Source: Sorex araneus (Eukaryota > Chordata > Mammalia > Eulipotyphla > Soricidae). Taken from it: a DNA stretch of 64,000 nucleotides. Shown here piece after piece: positions 3,834-55,400 of the stretch (position 1 is its first letter; every line of letters begins with the position of its first letter). Under the pieces are notes generated by a model. That model had not been told where the DNA came from. It saw only the letters and a program-made list of their open reading frames with translations, and ran no database searches. Both the position numbers and the translations under genes were made by a program. The DNA lies in the NCBI RefSeq assembly GCF_027595985.1, contig NC_073305.1, positions 104,281,535 to 104,345,534 on the forward strand, read 5' to 3'.

Positions 3834-3844
3834 ATAGAATGTAT

Positions 3845-4093
3845 CACTGTCACTGTCACTGTCATCCCTTTGCTCATGGATTTGCTCCAGCCCGCACCAG
3901 TAACATCTCCATTGTGATACTTGTTGTTACTATTTTTGGCATATCAAATACACCACGGGTAGCTTGCCAGGCTTTGCCTTTAGGGCAGAATACTCTTGGT
4001 AGCTTGCTGGGCTCTCCAAGAGTGGCGAAGGAATCAAAGCCAGTCAGCACCATGCAAGGCAGACACCCTACCCGCTGTGCTATCGCTCCAGCC
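3845..4093 (-). repeat. SINE type II (RTE-tailed), full length
   Basis: In reverse it reads tRNA-like head, B box, body (GCTTGCCAGGC, TTTGGCATATCAAATAC in plus orientation), GGAGATGTTACTGG and a TGACAG-repeat tail. The plus strand opens with CACTGTCACTGTCACTGTC. An 11-bp duplication ATAGAATGTAT lies at 3834-3844 and 4094-4104. Confidence 0.95.
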
Positions 4094-5062: not shown

Positions 5063-5235
5063 TTTTTTTTTTGCTTTTTGGGTCACACCCGGTATGCACA
5101 GGGGTTACTCCTGGCTCTGCACTCAGGAATTACTCCTGGTTGTGCTCAGGGGACTCTACGGGATGCTGGGAATTGAACCCAGGTCAGATGCGTGCAAGGC
5201 AAACACCCTACCCCCTATGCTATCGCTCCAGCCCC
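5063..5235 (-). repeat. SINE type I, near full length
   Basis: T-stretch, then GGGTCACACCCGGTATGCAC, GAATTACTCCTGG, B box (GAATTGAACCCAGG on plus) and the head end GCTATCGCTCCAGCCC. The flanks CTCTTTTAGGAAAC (5049-5062) and CTCTTAGGAAAC (about 5235-5246) form an imperfect target-site duplication. Confidence 0.93.
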
Positions 5236-6805: not shown

Positions 6806-7564
6806 AACATGGTTTCCTAAGAACCCTTTCCAAACTTCCAAACTGTTGTTTAATCACTTCAAAAGCAGACCCCAGGGCAATGGGCTTCAGGTTCCACATC
6901 TGTTATTTGTGAACCAGGGTTTGTCTTGAGTTCATTTTTTTTCATAAATCTTTGCCTTATTCCTGATCCTAAGAGTGAACCCCTCATTCAGTCCTGAATC
7001 ATAAGCCCAGAGCACACACAGAGGCAAATCAGCAGCTGAGACTTGAACCGAACCTGCTTTTCCTTTGTCTCTGCCCTCACTCCACCAGAATTTTGTTTCT
7101 AACTGCACCCTTCCCTCTTACTCTGGCATTTGGTCCTCTCCAGGCTGTTATGAAAATAGAAATCTTACACAAATGTGGATATTCTCTTTTAAACTATTCT
7201 TTGTTGATTTTTCTTGCTTATGTTGGGTTCACTCTTTGCATCTTGACTTTCATGGTTTTGTCTTCTGGAATCTCTTGTCTTTATCCCGTGTGCAAACAAC
7301 TGGTTGTTGTCTCACAAATCCATTTTCCTCTTCATCACAAAATAAAGGCTGCTCTCTAAAGCCCACGGCTGGGCCAGAGGCCTTCCTTGCAGCTGTGCTG
7401 CCAGTTCCCACCAACAGAATGTGAGTGGAAGAGATATTTCGACTTCCGTGTCACTTACTTAGAAAATTGCTTGTTCTGGACTTCCTCTTTCTCATGAGGG
7501 AAAACAGATATTCCAGTGACTGAAATTTGTATGGGAGAAAAAGCACCCTTGGTTTTGGTAGTTC
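6806..7564. other. Mostly single-copy DNA
   Basis: No gene recognised. About 7010-7085 (CACACAGAGGCAAATCAGC, then ACTTGAACC) resembles a short MIR 'cacacagctagtaagtggcagag' remnant but is too brief to call separately. Confidence 0.4.
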
Positions 7565-7808
7565 ACTGTATCGCTGTCACCCCATTGCTCATCTATTTGC
7601 TCGAGCAGGTACCAGTAATGTCTCCATTGCCAGACTTGTTGTTACTGTTTTTGGCATATCAAATACGCCATGGGTAGCTTGCCAGGCTCTTCCGTGCAAG
7701 TGGGATACTCTCAGTAGCTTGCCAGGCTCTCCGAGAGGGGCAGAGAAATCAAACCCGGATCGGCTGCATGCAAGGCAGACGCCCTACCCACTGTGCTAGT
7801 GCTCCAGC
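7565..7808 (-). repeat. SINE type II
   Basis: Plus strand: CACTGTATCGCTGTCACC (tail), ACCAGTAATGTCTCCATTG, TTTTTGGCATATCAAATACG, GCTTGCCAGGCTC, the B-box complement and GTGCTCCAGCCC. All type II segments are present. No convincing target duplication was found. Confidence 0.93.
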
Positions 7809-7834
7809 CCTTAACAGTACTATGAAGTAAATTA

Positions 7835-8402: not shown

Positions 8403-9592
8403 TTCTTTATTTATTTAATTTCATTTTTTTTATTTTATAAGTTAGTTTGCAATATTTGATTACATTTAATATTCAAACATCAACCCACCACCATTACAAC
8501 ATTCCCACCACCAAATTTGGGGTGTTTTCATCTCAAGCCCCAATTCCTGTCCCAAAACACAACCGAAATAATATATTTTGCATTGTCTGTTATGAAGAAC
8601 TGCTGAACATGCTTACAAAAAAGTGTTCATATAGGAAACAGTGTGAAGATTGTGTTATTTAGGCATGAGCCATTAAGATGTTCTATAGGATATCACTAAT
8701 ATGTTGTTAAAGTTTGAGTGATGTTAGCTTTGGTACATAAAATATGCATATATGCATATATATTTTCCCTCTATGATTTGTTGCCTACTACCTGAACCCC
8801 ATAAAATACGGTGTGGTAACACTGTAGCACTGTTGCACTGTTGTCCTGTTGTTCATCGATTTGTTTCAGTGGGCACCAGTAACATCTCCATTGTGAGATT
8901 TGTTGTTACTGTTTTTGGCATATTGAATACGCCACAGATAGCTTGCCAGGCTCTGCCATGCAGGCGGGATACTCTTGGTAGCTTGCCGGGCTCTCTGAGA
9001 GGGATGGAGGAATCGAACCCAGGTCGACGACATGCAAGGCAAATGTTCTACCCACTGTGCTATTGCTCCAGTCCATGGTGTGGATTATGGAGAATGGCTA
9101 GGGAGTGTCTTATGATGTGTCCAGGAATATGTTCACTCATATGTGAGGCTCAGCCAGAGCATGTGGGGAGGGCCTTGAGCATGGCAGCGATTGGGTTCTG
9201 GAGGTTTTCAGCTCCTTGAGCTGGGTCTCTTGGGGCAGGGAGGTCTCTCACCCAACCCCCTCTACGGTGCCCCAAGTGAAACAGCCTGGCAAGGAGTCTG
9301 GTGGCATGGTTATGGGGGACTCATGTTATGCTCCCTTCTGGGAGAAGCAGCTGAGTGTTCTGGATGGTGGCCAATGACAAGATTATCTGGCGCCGGCAGG
9401 AGGTGGCTTATGGGAGTGACCCCTGGGTCACCAGAGACTGGGGAAAATGGGCAGAGGATCTCCACTCCTGGGTCCCATTGAGCCCAGAGTCCAAGGTCAT
9501 AAAGTTCCACATTACCTGGGTTCCGTAGGATTTTACTTTTGCATGAGGCTCGGCCTGAGTGTGTGGGGAGTGGCCTTGAGTGTGGCGCAAAG
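8403..9592 (-). mobile_element. Family A retroposon, split by a type II SINE
   Basis: AT-rich 3' part (8403-8816) with a T-rich plus-strand start, resuming after the SINE at 9077 and running into a GC-rich 5' part. A second copy at 58170-58692 aligns across the SINE site, proving continuity. The 5' part repeats itself about 402 bp apart: ATGTGAGGCTCAGCC at 9141 and ATGAGGCTCGGCC at 9543, each followed by TGTGGGGAG..GCCTTGAG. No open frame of retrotransposon type is present, so it appears non-autonomous. Family name unknown to me. Confidence 0.7.
8817..9076 (-). repeat. SINE type II nested in family A
   Basis: Complete type II SINE: tail CACTGTAGCACTGTTGCACTG, GGCACCAGTAACATCTCC, TTTTTGGCATATTGAATACG, head end GCTATTGCTCCAGTCC. 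The duplication GGTGTGG lies at 8810-8816 and 9077-9083. Removing the SINE and one repeat restores alignment with the 58-kb family A copy. Confidence 0.95.
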
Positions 9593-16489: not shown

Positions 16490-16730
16490 TATCACTGTAT
16501 CACTGTCATCTCGTTGCTCATCGATTTGCTCGAGTGGGCACTGGTAACATCTCCATTGTGAGACTTGTTACTGTTTTTGCATATAGAATATGCCACGAGG
16601 AGCTTGCCAGGCTTCGCCATATTGGCGGGATACTCTTGGTAGCTTGCCCAGCTCTCAGAGAGGGACGGAGGAATCGAACCCAGGTCAGCAGCATGCAAGG
16701 CAAATGCCCTACCCACTGTGCTATAACTCC
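16490..16730 (-). repeat. SINE type II
   Basis: Tail ATCACTGTATCACTGTC, CTCATCGATTTGCTCGAG, CTGGTAACATCTCC, then body, B-box complement GAATCGAACCCAGG and head end. The extreme 5' end is clipped after GCTATAACTCC, lacking the usual AGCCC. Confidence 0.93.
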
Positions 16731-34400: not shown

Positions 34401-35350
34401 TTAACATTCCAATAGGAACAGAACTTTCGGTTTTTAATGAAGGGCAACAAATAAGGGTTTTTTTTTTCTTAAAGTGATGACCTACATGTCATTGTGTCAC
34501 CTATAAGGATCCCCAACATTGGAAATGAAGACATTGGTCAGCAAAACTTTTTGATTGTTGCTGGTTGAACAATACCCTGTAATGTTATTCTGGGTGTCTT
34601 ATTGCTGTTCAATGATGGGACCTTTTAAATGTGGTCTCTGAACTGATTCTAGGTCTGGTTTCCTTCAACAGTTTCTGTCCTTTTCTCTGTACTGTTCCAG
34701 GAAGGCTGGGATGCTGATTTCTGTAGGCTGCATTTCATATGATTTAGATTCTGACTGTATCTGATCAATTTGGGCCCATCAATGGGCAGGGCTAAGAGGC
34801 CAGGAGGTGGGTTCCTGGTTTCAGGTACCCCTGACTTTTCTTTTGTTTGTTTCTCTTCTTCCTCCTTTCGGGGCTCTTCTCTGCCCAAGTAACTTATTCC
34901 CTGCATTAAGTTTTCTTTCATGGAAGAATAATTTAAATCATTACAAACTAGTGATGCTTAACTGTTCAAACCTAATGTCTGCGATAGTTTCTTTTATTTT
35001 GGTTAGATTCTGAATGATCTAATTCAACTAAGAAGGGAAATTTCCAACAATAAAAGCACTTTCAGAGAGAGAACTAGCTCAAAAAGTTGTTTATATGCTT
35101 CTTGCATGGTTGGATCCCTGAGCATGACCAGGAGCTGGGATTTATACATGAATTCTGGTGGGTGGAGTCCCAAAGAAATAAACAACCCCCAAATGCTGTC
35201 CCTGCAGAGGGAACGCTATGGGCAGAGAACACAGGGTCTCACAGATAGTGCTGTCTTACTGGCAGCAGAGAAAGCAGAATCTTCTGGCCAGGTACATGTA
35301 CGGGAATCCAAGTGGGGCTCACTCAAAGGTTTTAATCAACATGTGACTGT
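31433..35350. other. Repeat-poor single-copy DNA, 3.9 kb
   Basis: No SINE, L1 or LTR recognised, in contrast to the high density elsewhere. No exon-like frame with splice sites was identified. The longest frames (32562-32783, 33258-33518, 34649-34921, 35106-35444) have no known motif. Confidence 0.45.
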
Positions 35351-35657
35351 TCACTTGTATCACTTGTCACTTGTCATCCTGTTATTCATCAATTGGCTCG
35401 AGCGTGTGCCAGTAACGTCTCCATTCATCCCTGTCTTGTGCTAGTGTAGCCCAGTGGTATCTGCTTGCTCCATGATCATGAAGATCCTCAAACCGTTTGT
35501 TCAGGGTCTTGACGAAGAAGTCTGACCATCTTTTAACCTAAAAGGGGGCCATGCAGTCGGTAACAGCTCTAGTCCAGTGGTTGTCTCTAATTTGCTTTAC
35601 GTGTCTGACCCATCTGATTTTTGATGCCTTGGCAAACGAGACAGTGTCCCTGATTCT
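35351..35657 (-). pseudogene. RTE-clade LINE, 3' end with ORF C-terminus
   Basis: The minus strand encodes, with one stop, the typical C-terminal tail of RTE-clade reverse transcriptase ORFs: RDTVSFAKASKIRWVRHV, DNHWTRAVTDCMAP, stop, [36 protein letters not shown]. The 3' end then reads GGAGACGTTACTGGTGCACA, a CTCGAGCCAATTGATGA variant, and TGACAAG repeats, which is also the 3' end of the type II SINE. The coding part continues past an L1 at 37199-37318. 5'-truncated and dead. Confidence 0.88.
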
Positions 35658-37200
35658 TTTTTTTAAAAAATGATTCATTTATTTTATTTTTAAAATTTTT
35701 TTTTATTAGTGAATCACCATGAGTTACAGTTACAAACCTATGAACTTTCATGTTTGCATTTTGTTTATATCCCTCCACCAGTGCCCAGTCCCCTCCACCA
35801 ATGTTCCCAGTATCCCTCCCACCCTCCCACCCCACCCCCCACTGCCCCACCCCACCTCTGTGGCAGGGCATTCCCTTTTGCTCTCTCTCTCCTTTTGGGT
35901 GTTATGGTTTGCAACAGAGGCACTGCATGGCCATTGTATTGGGTCTATATTCCATTTTCAGTGTGCATCTCTCATCCCGTGTGGGTCCTCAAACCACACT
36001 TTACCTGGTGTTCCCTTCTCTATGCGAGCTGCCCCTTCCTCCAGCACGTGGGGCCAGATTCCAAGCCTTGGAGCCACTCTCCTGGTAGTTATCTCTACTA
36101 TTCTTGCGTGTTAGCCTCCTATTCTGTTATTTAATTTTATATTCCACAGATGAGTGCAATATATGTCTGTCTCTCTCTTTCTGACTCATTTCACTGAGCA
36201 TGATACTTTCCATGTTGATCCACTTATATGCAAAGGTCATGACTTCATCTTTTCTAACAGCAGCTTAGTATTCCATTGTGTAGATGTACCAAAGTTTCTT
36301 TAACCAGTCATCTGTTCTCAGGCACTCGGGTTTTTTTCCAGATTCTGGCTATTGTAAACAGTGCTGCAATGAACATTAAAGTGCAGATGTCATTTAGACT
36401 ATACTTTTTAGTTCTCTGGGATATATTCCCAGCAATGGTATTGCTGGGTCAAATGGGAGCTCGATTTCTAATTTTTTGAGAAGTGACCATACTGTTTTCC
36501 AAAAGGGCTGAACCAGTCAGTATTCCCACCAGCAGTGTAGGAGGGTCCCTTTCTCCCCACATCCACACCAACAGTGGTTGCTTTTGTTCTTTTGGGTGTG
36601 TGCCAGTCTCTGTGGTGTGAGGTGGTATCTCATGGATGTTTTGATCTGCATCTCTCTGATGATTAGTGATGAAGAGCATTTTTTCATGTGCCTTTTGGCC
36701 ATTCAGTTTTCTTCCGTGAGAAAATTTCTGTTCATTTCTACCCCCCATTTTTTGATGGGGTTGGGAGTTTTCTTCTTGTAGATTCCAACCAGTGCCTTGT
36801 ATATCCTTGATATCAGCTCCTTATCTGATGGGTATTGGGTGAATATTCTTTCCCATTCTGTAGATTCTCTTTTTATTTTGGTCACTGTATCTTTTGCAGT
36901 GGAGAAGCTCTTAGTTGAATATAGTCCTATTTGTTTATCTCTGTTTACACTTGGTTGGTCAGTGGCATGTCATCTTTGAATATACCAATAGCTTCAATGC
37001 TGTGGAGAGTTTTGCCAACCTTGTCTTCAATGTACCTTATGGATTTTGGTCTGATGTTGAGGTCTTTAATTTATTTTGATCTGAATTTTGTGCATGGTGA
37101 TAGGTCGATATCTAAACCCATTCTTTTACAAGTGGTTGTCCAGTTATGCCAGCACCATTTGTTGAAGAGGCTTTCTTTGCTCCACTTCACATTTCTTGCT
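35658..37200 (-). mobile_element. L1 LINE, 5'-truncated, inserted in the RTE element
   Basis: 3' UTR at 35700-36150 and ORF2 C-terminal fragments on the minus strand ([40 protein letters not shown]). Frames are broken. It ends at TTCTTGCT, the same ORF2 position passed through by the 10.5-kb copy. Candidate duplication CTGATTCT (35650-35657) / CTGATCAT (37199-37206), six of eight matching. Confidence 0.93.
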
Positions 37201-37318
37201 GATCATTGATGGAAGTCAGAACTCCGGATTCCTTCTCTCACTTGAGTGAAATGTTATACTCCAAGAATAGCTCTTTCGATTCCTCTTTGGGATACCCAAA
37301 GTGTGACTGTTAGGGGAG
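37199..37318 (-). pseudogene. RTE-clade LINE, upstream coding piece
   Basis: Minus-strand reading gives VSQRGIERAILGV, stop, HFTQVREGIRSSDF. This is the block that precedes the 'S-x-I-R-D' segment in RTE ORFs, and that segment resumes at 35657 on the far side of the L1. The 5' limit is near 37318, where similarity is lost. Confidence 0.8.
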
Positions 37319-40430: not shown

Positions 40431-40676
40431 TAGTGGACTGTGCGATAGCACAGCCTATAGGGTGTTTGCCTTGCACGCGCCTGACCCAAGTTCGATTCCT
40501 CCGTCCCTCTTGGAGAGCCTGGCAAGCTACTGAGAATATCCCACCTGCATGGCAGAGCCAGACAAGCTACCCATAGCATATTTGATATGCCAAAAACAGT
40601 AACAAGAAGTCTCACAATGGAGATATTACTGGTGCCGGCTTGAGAAAATCAATGAACTACTGGACGACAGTGCTAT
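40431..40676 (+). repeat. SINE type II nested in ancient L1
   Basis: GTGCGATAGCACAGCCTATA, GTTCGATTCCTCC, CTTGGAGAGCCTGGCAAGC, GATATGCCAAAAACAGTAAC, CACAATGGAGATATTACTGG, then a short decayed GACGACAGTG tail. Confidence 0.93.
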
Positions 40677-41233
40677 AGTCTTTAACTACAGTTACAAAAG
40701 TGTTGAAAATAACTTCTCTGGGTCCATCTATGTTGATGCAAATTGTAGGATTTCATTTTTCTTTATAGCAGAATAGTATTCTATTGTATGCGAACCGTAT
40801 ATTCATTATTTGTCAGGTTGTTTCCTGTCCTTGGCTATTGTAAATAAATGCTGCAATAAACCTGGGCATGTTTAGACATCTTTGAATTAGTGGATCTATA
40901 TTTTCCTAAAAATAGTATTCTAGTAAGTACCCAGGAGTGGGATAACAGGATCATTGGAGCATCTCTTTTGAATTTTTTCGCGGAAACTCCAAACTTTTTT
41001 TCTAATGAATGCACTGATTTACATTTCTGTGAACAATAGATGAAGTTTCCTTCCACTCCACGTTCTCTCCAGTCCTTATTTCATGACTTGTGTGATAACC
41101 ATTCACATTGTGAGTTGATACTCATTATCATAAAAAGAGATGATGGGTATCTTGCATGTATCGCTGTACATCTTCTTTAGAGAAGTGTCAGCTTAGACCT
41201 TTGTCCATTAAAAAACTAAGATTTTTACTTTTG

Positions 41234-41352: not shown

Positions 41353-41897
41353 TCCCTCCCATTTTGTTGTTTGCTTTTTATAAACTTGTTGTATATTTTG
41401 GATATTAACCCCATCTTTGTAAATAACTTGCAAATATACTTACCTATTCAGTTATATATCTTTTTAGTTTGGTGCAAGTTTTTTGCATTGTGCAAATACA
41501 AGTTTTTAACCATGCAGAATTTTTTTAGTCTGATGCAGGGTTCATTTGTTTATTTTTGTTTTTGTTTTATCTGCAGTTGAAGATGTGTCCTCAAATGTGT
41601 TTCTAAGTCTGATGTTAGAAACACAAATTTTCTTCCCTGTGTTTTCTATGTATTTTGTGGCTTTGGGTCTTGTATCCAAGTTTCTAATACAATTTGAATT
41701 GACTTTTATATATGATGTTATGTAGTGGTCTGAGTTTCTTTTGTATGTAACTATCAGTTTTCCTGCCTCTATCTATTGTATATATTTTTTCCACTGTATT
41801 TCACTTCTTTGGTTACATTTATTTCAAGACATCTTATTCCTTGTGATATGATTGTAAATGGCATTGTTGTCTTGATATCTCTTTCTGGTAGTTCAAT

Positions 41898-42075
41898 TTT
41901 TTTTTTTTTTTGCTTTTTGGGTCACACCCAGCGATGCTCAGGGGTTACTCCTGGCTTTGCACTCAGGAATTACTCCTGGCAGTGCCTGGGGGACCATATG
42001 GGATGCTGGGGATCGAACCCGGGTCAGCCGCGTGCAAGGCAAACGCCCTACCCGCTGTGCTATCGCTCCGGCCCT
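41898..42075 (-). repeat. SINE type I, full length, young
   Basis: GGGTCACACCCAGCGATGCT, GAATTACTCCTGGCAG, GATCGAACCCGGGTCAGCCG, GCTATCGCTCCGGCCC. Duplication TAGTTCAAT at 41889-41897 and 42079-42087. Confidence 0.96.
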
Positions 42076-42272
42076 TGATAGTTCAATATTTTGTTGTAAA
42101 ATGCAACAAAGTTTTATGTATTTTATGGTAAGCTACTTTTTTGTCGTATTTTTGATATCAAAGTTTTTAATTGTTTTTTTTTTTAAATTTTATGTCTATT
42201 ATTATGTCATCAGCAAATAGTGGCAATTTTACTTCATCATTTTCAGTACGAATTAATTTCATATCCTTTTAT

Positions 42273-48652: not shown

Positions 48653-48666
48653 TTGTATGCTGTATG

Positions 48667-48896
48667 GGCTGGAGCAATAGCGCAGCAGGTAGGGCGTTTG
48701 CCTTGTGAGCGGCTGACCCGGGTTCGATTCCTCTGCCCTCTTGGAGAGCCCAGCAAGCTACCGAGAGTATCCTGCCTGCACAGCAGAGCCTGGCAAACTA
48801 CCCGTGGTGGATTCAATATGCCAAAAACAGTAACAGCAAGTCTCACATTGGAGACGTTACTGGTGCTCACTGAAGTAAATCAATGAACAACGGGAT
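48667..48896 (+). repeat. SINE type II
   Basis: GGGCTGGAGCAATAGCGCAG, GTTCGATTCCTCTGCC, CTCTTGGAGAGCCCAGCAAG, AATATGCCAAAAACAGTAAC, ACATTGGAGACGTTACTGG, ends ACAACGGGATGG without a TGACAG array. CTGTAT flanks at 48661-48666 and 48899-48904 may be the duplication. Confidence 0.94.
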
Positions 48897-49388
48897 GGCT
48901 GTATATATTTGTACATATGTACATTCAATTTATTATAAAATTTCACTTATACACTGGAGGCCAAATCTATGTAATTATGAGTATCTCAATATATCCCACA
49001 TTTTTCTTTGTTGTTTGTTGAAATTGTTACACATTTTCTAGCACAGCAACAGTAAGCCTCAGTGGTCATAGGGATAATGAAATGCCTGTTTTTTTTTTTC
49101 CTTCTCTTTTTCAGTTTCCCCTTTTTTCCTCACTGTGTTTGATCAACTCTGGAATAAGCTCCTTGTAATTTTTCTCAGCATTTTAATATAGACTCAAACC
49201 ATAGTAGTCATAAAATCTGCTTTGTTGACCATTTTATCCTCTGGAACTAATCAGCAACAAACATGATCTAAATATTTGTTAAATAAATAAATTAATGAGT
49301 ATAACATCCCAGAAGGAGAGTACTATTTCGGTAAATTCAATTAAGATCATTTTATTTTGTGCTTTATTGGCGTGTTAAAAGTTTGTTT
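48897..49388. other. Single-copy AT-rich DNA
   Basis: No feature recognised. Confidence 0.4.
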
Positions 49389-50139: not shown

Positions 50140-50380
50140 AGGCTAGGGTAGGGAATTTGCCTTGCATGCAGCTGACCCAGGTTTAATTCCTCTGCCCCTC
50201 TTGGAGAGCCCGGCAAGCTACAGAGAGTATCTCGCCCACATGACAGAGCCTGGCAAGTTACCCGTGGCATAGTCATTCAATATGCCAAAAACAGTTACAA
50301 CTAGTATCACAATGGAGACATTACTGGTGCCGTGCTGCTCAAGCAAATTGATGAGCAACGGGATGACAGTGACAGTGACA
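50140..50380 (+). repeat. SINE type II lacking the A-box region
   Basis: Begins AGGCTAGGGTAGGGAATTTG, so the same A-box stretch is missing as at 49389. Then CAGGTTTAATTCCTC, CTTGGAGAGCCCGGCAAGC, CACAATGGAGACATTACTGG, GATGAGCAACGGGATGACAG and TGACAG repeats. Exact 11-bp duplication GTGTAGCAATT at 50129-50139 and 50381-50391. Confidence 0.96.
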
Positions 50381-53379: not shown

Positions 53380-53417
53380 TTATCTATGTATTTATTTATT
53401 TATTTTAAGTTGTTCAT

Positions 53418-54230
53418 CAATGACCAACATCCAGAGACTATAAAACCAAGCTCCCGGAAGAGAGTGATGCAGTCTCTTGCCCCCGCGCCTGGCTGTCTTC
53501 ATTGGGGCCCCTCAGAGGGGAAGGGTTACATTTGCATTTCCTTCCTCCCCCTACCCTCCCCCAAGCAGAGCCTCAACAGTTGAGGACCTCTGGAACCCAG
53601 CCACGGCCATACTCGGGCCCACTCTCCATAAGTTTGGACGAGCTACATGCATGGGGGAGCTGCTGGAGGAACCCAGGTGTGCGGGACCCGAGGCCGAGAT
53701 CTCCAAGGCTCAGATTGGGACTAGGCCTCTTCCACCCAGATCCCCCATTTTACAGTACCTAGGCAGTCACACCCAGAAACTGCCCCCGGCAGCATGTAAT
53801 CCCATTAACAGCCAATACCCAGAGACTATAAAAACAAGCTCCTGGAAGCTAATAGTTTCTAATAGCCCAGTTCTCCCTCTTGGAGAACCTGACAAGTTAC
53901 CAAAAGTCTATTGCCCATTTGGCAGAGTCTGACAGGCTCTCCGTGGGGTATTCATATCCAAACTACAGTAACAGATATATACATACCTCTTGGAGAGGCC
54001 GGCAAGCTACCGAGAGTGTTCCGCCCGCATGGCAGAGCATGGCAAGCTTCCCGTAGCATATTTGATATGCCAAAAACAGTAACAATAGGTTTCATTCCCT
54101 TGATCCTGAAAGAGCCTCCAATCGTTGGGAAAGACAAGTAAGGAGAGGCTGCTAAAATCTCAGGGCTGAGTGTAATGGAGACGTTACTGGTGCCTGCTCG
54201 AGTAAATCGACAAACAATGGGATGGTAGAG
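53418..54230 (+). mobile_element. Composite retroposon: TATA-containing monomers plus repeated SINE II body
   Basis: Order on plus: (1) a GC-rich monomer starting near CCAGAGACTATAAAACC at 53431; (2) the start of a second monomer (CCAGAGACTATAAAAAC) about 388 bp later; (3) a diverged SINE II body (CTCTTGGAGAACCTGACAAG, 53878-53990); (4) a second, better body (CTCTTGGAGAGGCCGGCAAG, 53987-54087); (5) an extra ~80 bp absent from the SINE; (6) ATGGAGACGTTACTGGTGCC and the RTE-type 3' end. No tRNA head. Left and right flanks AGTTGTTCAT / AGTTGCTCAT suggest insertion in the 3' end of the adjacent L1. Confidence 0.7.
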
Positions 54231-54235
54231 ATACA

Positions 54236-55400
54236 GTGATACAGTTGCTCATGATTGGATTTCAGTCATACAGTATTTCAACCCCCATCCCTTCAGTAGT
54301 GTACATTTCCCAGTACCAGTGTTCCCACGTTCTCTCCCATCAACCCCCCTCATCACTCCCCCAGCTGCCTCTATGGCAGGTGTTTCTCTCTCTCTCTCTT
54401 TATCTCTCTCTTTCTCTCTCTCTCCTTTTGGGAATGTGGTTCTCAATATTGGCACTTAAAGGTTATCAAGAATATCCCATTACTTACTTTGAACACTCAG
54501 TTCTTCCTCAGCATGATGATTCCCATCTATTATTGTCATATCTGTGTCTTCTCTATCTTACCTACCCTCAGTCCCATACGCACATACAGTTAGACCCAAC
54601 CAATCACCAATTCTCCTAACCCCTGTTTTTCCTGGCCATGGATATTAGTTTTCTACTATATGTATATATCTATATACACACATATCATATACCATAAATG
54701 AATGCAGTCATTCTATATCTCTCCTTCTGACTCATTTCACTCTCCATGTCTATTCATTTATAGAAAAATTTCATGACTTCATTTTTCCTAACAGCTACAT
54801 AGTATTCCATTGTGTAGAGGTGCTATAGTTTCTTTATTCATTTGTCTGTTCTTGGGTATTCAGGTTGTTTCCAGATCCTGGCTATGGTGAATAGTGCTGC
54901 AATGAACTTAGGAGTGCAGATGGTATTTCTGCTGTGTTTTTGGAGCCCCGGGTATATTCCCAGGAGTAGTATTGCTGGGTCAAATGGGAGCTCAATTTCT
55001 AGGTTTTGGAGAAATGTCCCTATTGTTTTCCAAAAAGGCTTGACCAGTCAGCATTCCCACCAACAATGAGGGAGAGTCCCTTTCTCCCCACATCTATGCC
55101 AATACTGGTTGCTTTTGTTCTTTTGGACATGTGTCAGTGTCTGTGGTGTGAGATGATATCTCATTGTTGTTTTGATATGCATCTCCCTGATGATTAGTGA
55201 TAAAGAGCATTTTTTTCATGTGCCTTTTGGCCATTTGAATTTCTTCTTTGAGAAAATTTCTGTTCATTTTATTGCCCAATTTTCTTATGGGATTAGGTTT
55301 TTTTCTTGTAGGATTCAACCAGTGCCTTCCTTGTATATTTTGATATTAACCCCTTATCAGAAGGGTATTGGATGAATATCCTTTCCCATTCCTTGTTGCT

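Follow-up and report, generated by a model that had tools for sequence, protein, structure and literature searches.

SINE II, the type II SINE of the shrew Sorex araneus, consists of a tRNA-type head followed by a bipartite RTE tail. Sequence comparison with other repeats of the genome makes it very probable that SINE II is a nonautonomous element that is mobilized by an RTE-like LINE and that was built from the head of another SINE (SINE I), a part of the RTE 5′ UTR, and the RTE 3′ end. The window analyzed here comprises 64,000 nucleotides of contig NC_073305.1 (positions 104,281,535 to 104,345,534 of the forward strand; assembly GCF_027595985.1), and all coordinates below refer to it unless a locus (L) number is given.

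A split RTE copy in the window

The stretch from 35351 to 37318, which the initial annotation had read as the remnant of an RTE-clade LINE, is a dead, 5′-truncated copy of the genome's RTE LINE that is split by an L1-like insert (Table 1). The copy lies on the minus strand in two pieces (37301 to 37200 and 35660 to 35352). Translation of 35660 to 35351 on that strand yields the C terminus of the RTE ORF with one internal stop, and translation of 37318 to 37195 yields ...QRGIERAILGV*HFTQVREGIRSSDFHQ*SA. To place these pieces, we used a partial RTE consensus that was built from 10 other copies, the window copy not being among them. The upstream piece (37300 to 37200) aligned to consensus positions 1858 to 1958 at 94% and the downstream piece (35658 to 35351) to positions 1958 to 2277 at 84%. 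The two pieces thus match consecutive parts of the consensus, which bears out the earlier proposal of an RTE ORF C terminus on the minus strand.

An exact 10-bp target site duplication (TSD), AACAGTCACA on the minus strand, is found at 37302 to 37311 and at 35342 to 35351, and these are its only occurrences in the window on either strand. The consecutive consensus matches and the flanking TSD indicate a single 5′-truncated RTE insertion that was afterwards split by another element. The TSD also places the element proper at 37301 to 35352. Thus, the annotated interval does hold an RTE copy, but its limits were drawn incorrectly, since 37318 lies beyond the 5′ copy of the TSD. Most of the insert (35661 to 37199) is matched by 39 other places in the genome at 84 to 93% (40 scored of 29,042 first-look candidates). 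Its resemblance to motifs of L1 ORF2 leads us to call it L1-like; one of its three frames was scanned against Pfam without a match, and a search by eye for its TSD found none.

Table 1. Repeat features of the window
Feature	Position	Strand	Basis or remark
RTE, upstream piece	37200..37301	-	94% to RTE consensus 1858-1958
RTE, downstream piece (ORF C terminus and TGACAAG/TGATACAAG tail)	35352..35660	-	Translation, consensus alignment, genome matches
TSD of RTE copy, 5′ copy	37302..37311	-	AACAGTCACA, exact
TSD of RTE copy, 3′ copy	35342..35351	-	AACAGTCACA, exact
L1-like insert splitting the RTE copy	35661..37199 (about)	-	Genome matches; presumed L1 motifs
Full SINE II copy	3840..4093	-	
Full SINE II copy	7563..7810	-	
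Full SINE II copy	8822..9074	-	RTE 5′ UTR part 9010-8900, RTE 3′ part 8892-8823
Full SINE II copy	16490..16730	-	
Full SINE II copy	40442..40679	+	
Full SINE II copy	48666..48897	+	
Full SINE II copy	50146..50378	+	
SINE I example	41880..42090	-	Same kind of head as SINE II, A-rich tail
Internally deleted RTE derivative without tRNA head	53415..54244 (5′ limit approximate)	+	Sequence comparison

The RTE family in the genome

The RTE copy belongs to a family with many other members. When the 307-nt RTE piece of the window was used as a genome query, all 40 scored candidates matched, one of them being the window itself (8,099 first-look candidates), and the 5′ part of the RTE ORF likewise gave 40 matches among 40 scored (8,005 first-look candidates). 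The ORF of the partial consensus (10 copies) contains an RVT_1 domain (E = 3.5e-33). The RTE piece of the window, 92 residues long, has no match to a reverse transcriptase (RT) domain and only a subthreshold match to Retrotrans_gag (E = 0.022); this piece sits behind, that is, C-terminal to, the RT domain. In the consensus, the ORF ends at a TGA stop that lies inside the terminal repeat GATGACAAGTGATACAAGTGA. The 3′ tail is a short tandem repeat, as the initial annotation had expected in place of poly(A): ACAAGTG was present near the end of 29 of 30 copies, and the SINE-type ACAGTG was present in 0 of 30. The copies compared throughout are the best matches to a query and not a random sample. 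Collectively, the RT domain, the short-repeat tail, the 5′ truncation, and the TSDs described below support the classification of this LINE as RTE-like and agree with the original RTE-clade reading; membership in the clade itself is our assumption, made on likeness to known RTE sequences.

Fourteen RTE copies had been picked for their 5′ ends, and their 3′ ends were fetched at guessed positions. Four of these had an RTE 3′ end, one (L074) had a SINE II end, and nine gave no match, and this set was left out. By eye, RTE-like sequence in reverse orientation was seen upstream of the RTE 5′ ends in L055, L059, L060, and L041, a possible sign of 5′ inversion at insertion. At L053 (310 to 561), an internally deleted RTE derivative with a (GAT)n end immediately precedes a second RTE copy, abutting its 5′ UTR.

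SINE II matches both ends of the RTE

With up to three mismatches allowed, the 18-mer CAATGGAGACGTTACTGG has nine matches in the window, against 0.03 expected. These fall in seven full SINE II copies, the RTE copy described above, and one internally deleted RTE copy. The last ~70 nt of the RTE (the end of the ORF and the tail) match the 3′ end of all seven full SINE II copies, and the claim that the type II SINE ends as the RTE does therefore holds for every one of them.

A SINE II consensus (18 copies) has three parts, namely, a tRNA-type head, an RTE 5′ UTR part, and an RTE 3′ end. Its body is identical to the RTE 5′ UTR consensus (13 copies; L060 and L041 left out) at 102 of 104 positions (179 bits). 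Comparison of the two consensus ends, as the initial annotation had suggested, gave 67 identities over the last 72 aligned positions of SINE II (101 bits; RTE 3′ consensus of 29 copies, window copy left out). None of 500 mononucleotide-shuffled SINEs scored above 28.3 bits. The two RTE parts are separated by a short junction, and the 5′ UTR/3′ end junction occupies the same position in the seven short window copies.

Single elements gave similar results. The body of one window SINE matches 14 of the 15 RTE copies that reach the 5′ UTR or the start of the ORF (13 of 14 fetched copies plus L041, which includes part of the 5′ ORF; the match is partial in L063 and L041 and missing in L060). The window SINE at 8822 to 9074 is 92.8% identical to RTE copies L059 and L054 over 111 nt, and the SINE II body is 80 to 94% identical over about 100 nt to 12 single full-length RTE copies, 11 of them at 87% or higher. 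At L043, a SINE II copy seems to be nested within an RTE copy.

Read in frame, the SINE II tail gives QWRRYWCPLEQINEQRDDSDTVI, which is the C terminus of the RTE protein. Because the RTE stop codon sits inside the terminal repeat, the tail that SINE II carries is mostly coding sequence. The terminal repeats of the two elements are one base apart (TGATACAAG in the RTE and TGATACAG in SINE II), and the SINE II consensus carries ACAGTG near its end and no A tail.

Two simpler descriptions of SINE II, in which it shares only its 3′ end with the RTE or has a body that is an unrelated core, are ruled out by the match of the body to the RTE 5′ UTR. A search for a special RNA fold at the 3′ ends found nothing better than in shuffled sequences (z = −0.53 for the SINE and +0.64 for the RTE). 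The 104-nt RTE 5′ UTR piece that SINE II has in common with the RTE folds somewhat better than its shuffles (z = −1.98; 4 of 200 shuffles did as well). Hairpins observed in this piece include CTCTCGG/CCGAGAG and GGCGTATTCGATATGCC.

The SINE head is shared with SINE I

The head consensus of SINE II is identical to that of SINE I at 65 of 66 positions; SINE I has an A-rich tail. ARAGORN made a single tRNA call in the window, a tRNA-Ala (anticodon TGC) at 5158 to 5230, which lies inside a SINE I head and may point to the source of the head of these SINEs; it made no call in any SINE II copy of the window. By eye, two stretches of the SINE II consensus, TAGCACAGCGGG and GGTTCGATTCC, fit pol III A and B box motifs and are candidates for these boxes.

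Internally deleted RTE derivatives

The window also contains an RTE derivative with an internal deletion (Table 1). This derivative consists, in order, of an upstream region, two 5′ UTR-like units of ~110 bp (starting at 53876 and 53986), the 5′ UTR up to CTCAGGG, and the RTE 3′ end; at 53986 to 54244, the RTE 5′ UTR up to CTCAGGG is fused directly to the RTE 3′ end. It terminates in the SINE-type TGATACAG tail. Five further derivatives (L053, L081, L095, L096, and L098) have a similar 5′ UTR/3′ end junction, and a SINE-type ACAG tail is present in two of the six (the window derivative and L096). The SINE II body is 78 to 81% identical to four derivatives and 89% identical to that of the window; L081 gave no match in this comparison and 72.6% in another. 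The upstream parts of the window and L053 derivatives did not match other fetched RTE 5′ regions at E = 1e-3. These derivatives would fit a path from RTE to internally deleted RTE to capture of a head, as judged from their organization. Of the tandem 5′ UTR-like units in the window derivative (53876 to 54084), the first shares 74% identity with the SINE II body and the second 89%, a pattern that suggests a chimeric copy.

Insertion footprints

A-rich TSDs of ~15 bp together with an A-rich tail are the pattern expected of L1. For SINE I, TSDs with a score of at least 10 were found at 36 of 76 copies (2 of 76 in the control), with a median length of 15 bp (n = 36) and a start that is mostly A-rich. 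These TSDs and the A-rich tail of SINE I indicate that L1-type machinery has moved SINEs in this genome. At the same score, TSDs were found by script at 8 of 30 RTE loci (0 of 30 in mismatched controls), leaving 22 of 30 without one, and at 5 of 20 SINE II loci (control, 0 of 20); the search settings were not identical between the RTE and the SINEs, and 14 loci that overlapped others were dropped from the TSD database.

The median TSD length was 12 bp for SINE II (n = 4) and 11 bp for the RTE (n = 9). These 13 TSDs are shorter (Mann-Whitney P = 6e-6) and less A-rich (P = 5e-5) than those of SINE I. One TSD of each element that lay in AT repeats was dropped from this test; one RTE TSD with a score of 9 was kept, and that of the window RTE, which the script missed owing to the insert, was added by hand. 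On these small numbers, the insertion footprint tends to place SINE II with the RTE and apart from SINE I.

Divergence and copy number

Non-CpG Kimura two-parameter (K2P) divergence from the consensus averaged 0.077 for SINE II (range, 0.030 to 0.131; n = 18) and 0.081 for RTE 3′ ends (0.050 to 0.149; n = 30), the latter sample being biased because it consists of best matches to the window copy. The overlap of these ranges indicates that SINE II and the RTE overlap in age. SINE I had a mean non-CpG divergence of 0.113 (median, 0.087; range, 0.008 to 0.329) from a consensus of the same 52 copies, and no significant difference in divergence between SINE I and SINE II was found (P = 0.46), so that any order of ages depends on the wider spread of SINE I. 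Nineteen of the 52 SINE I copies are above the most diverged SINE II copy, and nine are below the least diverged one. Subfamilies permitting, SINE I spans a longer time than SINE II, on both sides.

Full SINE II copies number 7 in the window and 11 in an 80-kb sample drawn from 20 places at chosen round coordinates (assembly, 2.406 Gb in 65 contigs). As a rough count, 18 copies in 144 kb correspond to about 301,000 copies in the genome (95% Poisson interval, 178,000 to 476,000), and the 80-kb sample taken by itself gives 331,000 (165,000 to 592,000). RTE coding fragments were found once in the 144 kb (the window's own copy) and not in the 80-kb sample, which corresponds to ~17,000 in the genome with a very wide interval.

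Discussion

The RTE, which the initial annotation had named as the likely LINE partner of the type II SINE, holds up as such: it matches SINE II at the 3′ end (67/72) and, through its 5′ UTR, in the body (102/104), and the footprints agree, albeit in small numbers. In the origin that we favor, the head of the A-tailed SINE I would have been joined, probably by template switching or recombination, to an RTE of which no more than a part of the 5′ UTR and the 3′ end were left. Transcription of SINE II would probably be carried out by pol III and driven by its tRNA-type head. By analogy with established LINE/SINE biology, the RTE protein would recognize the 3′ ~70 nt of SINE II, which comprise the last RTE codons and the terminal repeat, and would prime reverse transcription at its nick (target-primed reverse transcription). 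Several observations weigh against this account: most SINE II (15 of 20) and RTE (22 of 30) loci are without a TSD scoring at least 10, the footprint comparison draws on 13 TSDs, the 3′ ends show no better folding than shuffled sequences, the divergence of SINE I and SINE II is not significantly different, and the tails differ by one base, the SINE-type repeat occurring in none of the 30 RTE copies.

If SINE II were mobilized by L1 in the manner of SINE I, the RTE parts would be passive passengers. The nearly identical head would lead one to consider this, given that SINE I shows an L1-type A-rich tail and A-rich TSDs; SINE II, however, lacks an A tail, its terminal repeat is of the RTE type, and its few TSDs are shorter, less A-rich, and RTE-like (small n), which makes an L1 route very unlikely. 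Borrowing could also have run in reverse, with the RTE taking its ends from a preexisting SINE, and near-identity of the ends has by itself no direction. The SINE II 3′ part, however, is in frame the RTE C terminus, a coding sequence that would be hard to derive from a SINE, and SINE II joins both ends of the RTE across a deleted ORF; we regard this direction as scarcely credible.

A third possibility is a variant of the favored origin, in which the immediate source of SINE II was a family of internally deleted RTEs and not an autonomous RTE. The six derivatives with a 5′ UTR/3′ end junction, two of which (window and L096) have the SINE-type ACAG tail, would supply such an intermediate, and the unit in the window derivative is 89% identical to the SINE body. 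Yet four of the derivatives are less similar to that body than most full-length RTE copies are, and the final ~80 nt of the derivatives' 5′ UTR part are missing from SINE II. We therefore hold this variant to be possible but rather unlikely.

Whichever intermediate was involved, mobilization of SINE II by the RTE has a wider setting if the RTE analyzed here is RTE1_Sar. This is most likely the case, although the identity is inferred by description, both being abundant shrew RTEs. From what is reported of it, RTE1_Sar is shared by the common shrew and nine nematodes, all of them parasitic, a distribution that its authors put down to horizontal transfer with a strongylid (Dunemann and Wasmuth 2019, PMC6542046); the horizontal-transfer side of the initial annotation, as far as that source bears on it, was therefore already in print for RTE1_Sar of the common shrew. 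We give roughly even credence to the full sequence of events in which a resident L1-type SINE took advantage of a nematode-transferred RTE, its head becoming fused to both RTE ends, so that the SINE switched its partner from L1 to RTE, reached ~300,000 copies, and acquired a recognition tail that is mostly coding sequence.

If this is true, horizontal transfer would have altered a mammalian genome chiefly by way of a SINE riding on the RTE, a link that is undescribed in the literature surveyed. Identity of the RTE with RTE1_Sar would connect a LINE transfer between nematodes and the shrew that is already in print with a repeat that ranks among the commonest in this genome, and would give mammals a counterpart of the AviRTE SINEs in birds. 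Eulipotyphlans that lack the RTE would then be expected to lack SINE II too, and the time at which SINE II appeared would help in dating the transfer. A tail made of coding sequence raises the further question of how the RTE protein recognizes its template with almost no 3′ UTR.

The main text of PMC6542046 makes no mention of SINEs, and the single mention of RTE1_Sar in another paper that names it concerns horizontal transfer. No paper among those consulted was found to pair RTE1_Sar with a shrew SINE; the pair could already be listed in Kojima 2018 (PMC5786205), which a passage of PMC7245038 cites for LINE-derived SINE bodies. Sor is described, in the passages that mention it, as a shrew T− SINE (PMC8466645, PMC7279448, PMC11240701) and, matched by that description alone, may be SINE I or SINE II.

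A close parallel is AviRTE, a nematode-linked RTE with bird SINEs in whose bipartite tails one part stems from its 5′ UTR and the other from its 3′ UTR (Suh et al. 2016, PMC4844689). As outlined in that paper, these SINEs resemble SINE II in joining a promoter head to a bipartite tail from the RTE ends, but their 3′ part comes from a ~40-bp 3′ UTR, whereas that of SINE II consists mostly of ORF codons, with the stop in the terminal repeat. Bipartite RTE derivatives are called common, and sometimes gain small-RNA heads, in passages of Kojima 2020 (PMC7245038). One described there, hagfish SINE1-1_EBu, has an RTE 5′ UTR and 3′ end behind a small-RNA head, as SINE II has behind its own; the hagfish SINEs differ in host and in head, and the passages on them draw no link to horizontal transfer. 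The opossum RTESINE1 is, according to the relevant passage of PMC4476161, likewise a mammalian SINE believed to be mobilized by an RTE (RTE_Mdo), but it is marsupial, and its RTE is a different one. As far as these sources go, RTE1_Sar, its strongylid transfer, and bipartite RTE SINEs elsewhere are already known (PMC6542046, PMC4844689, PMC7245038). To the literature surveyed, the present analysis adds a probable link from an RTE for which horizontal transfer has been published to a mammalian SINE of very high copy number, the derivation of this SINE from both ends of the RTE, and its mostly coding recognition tail.
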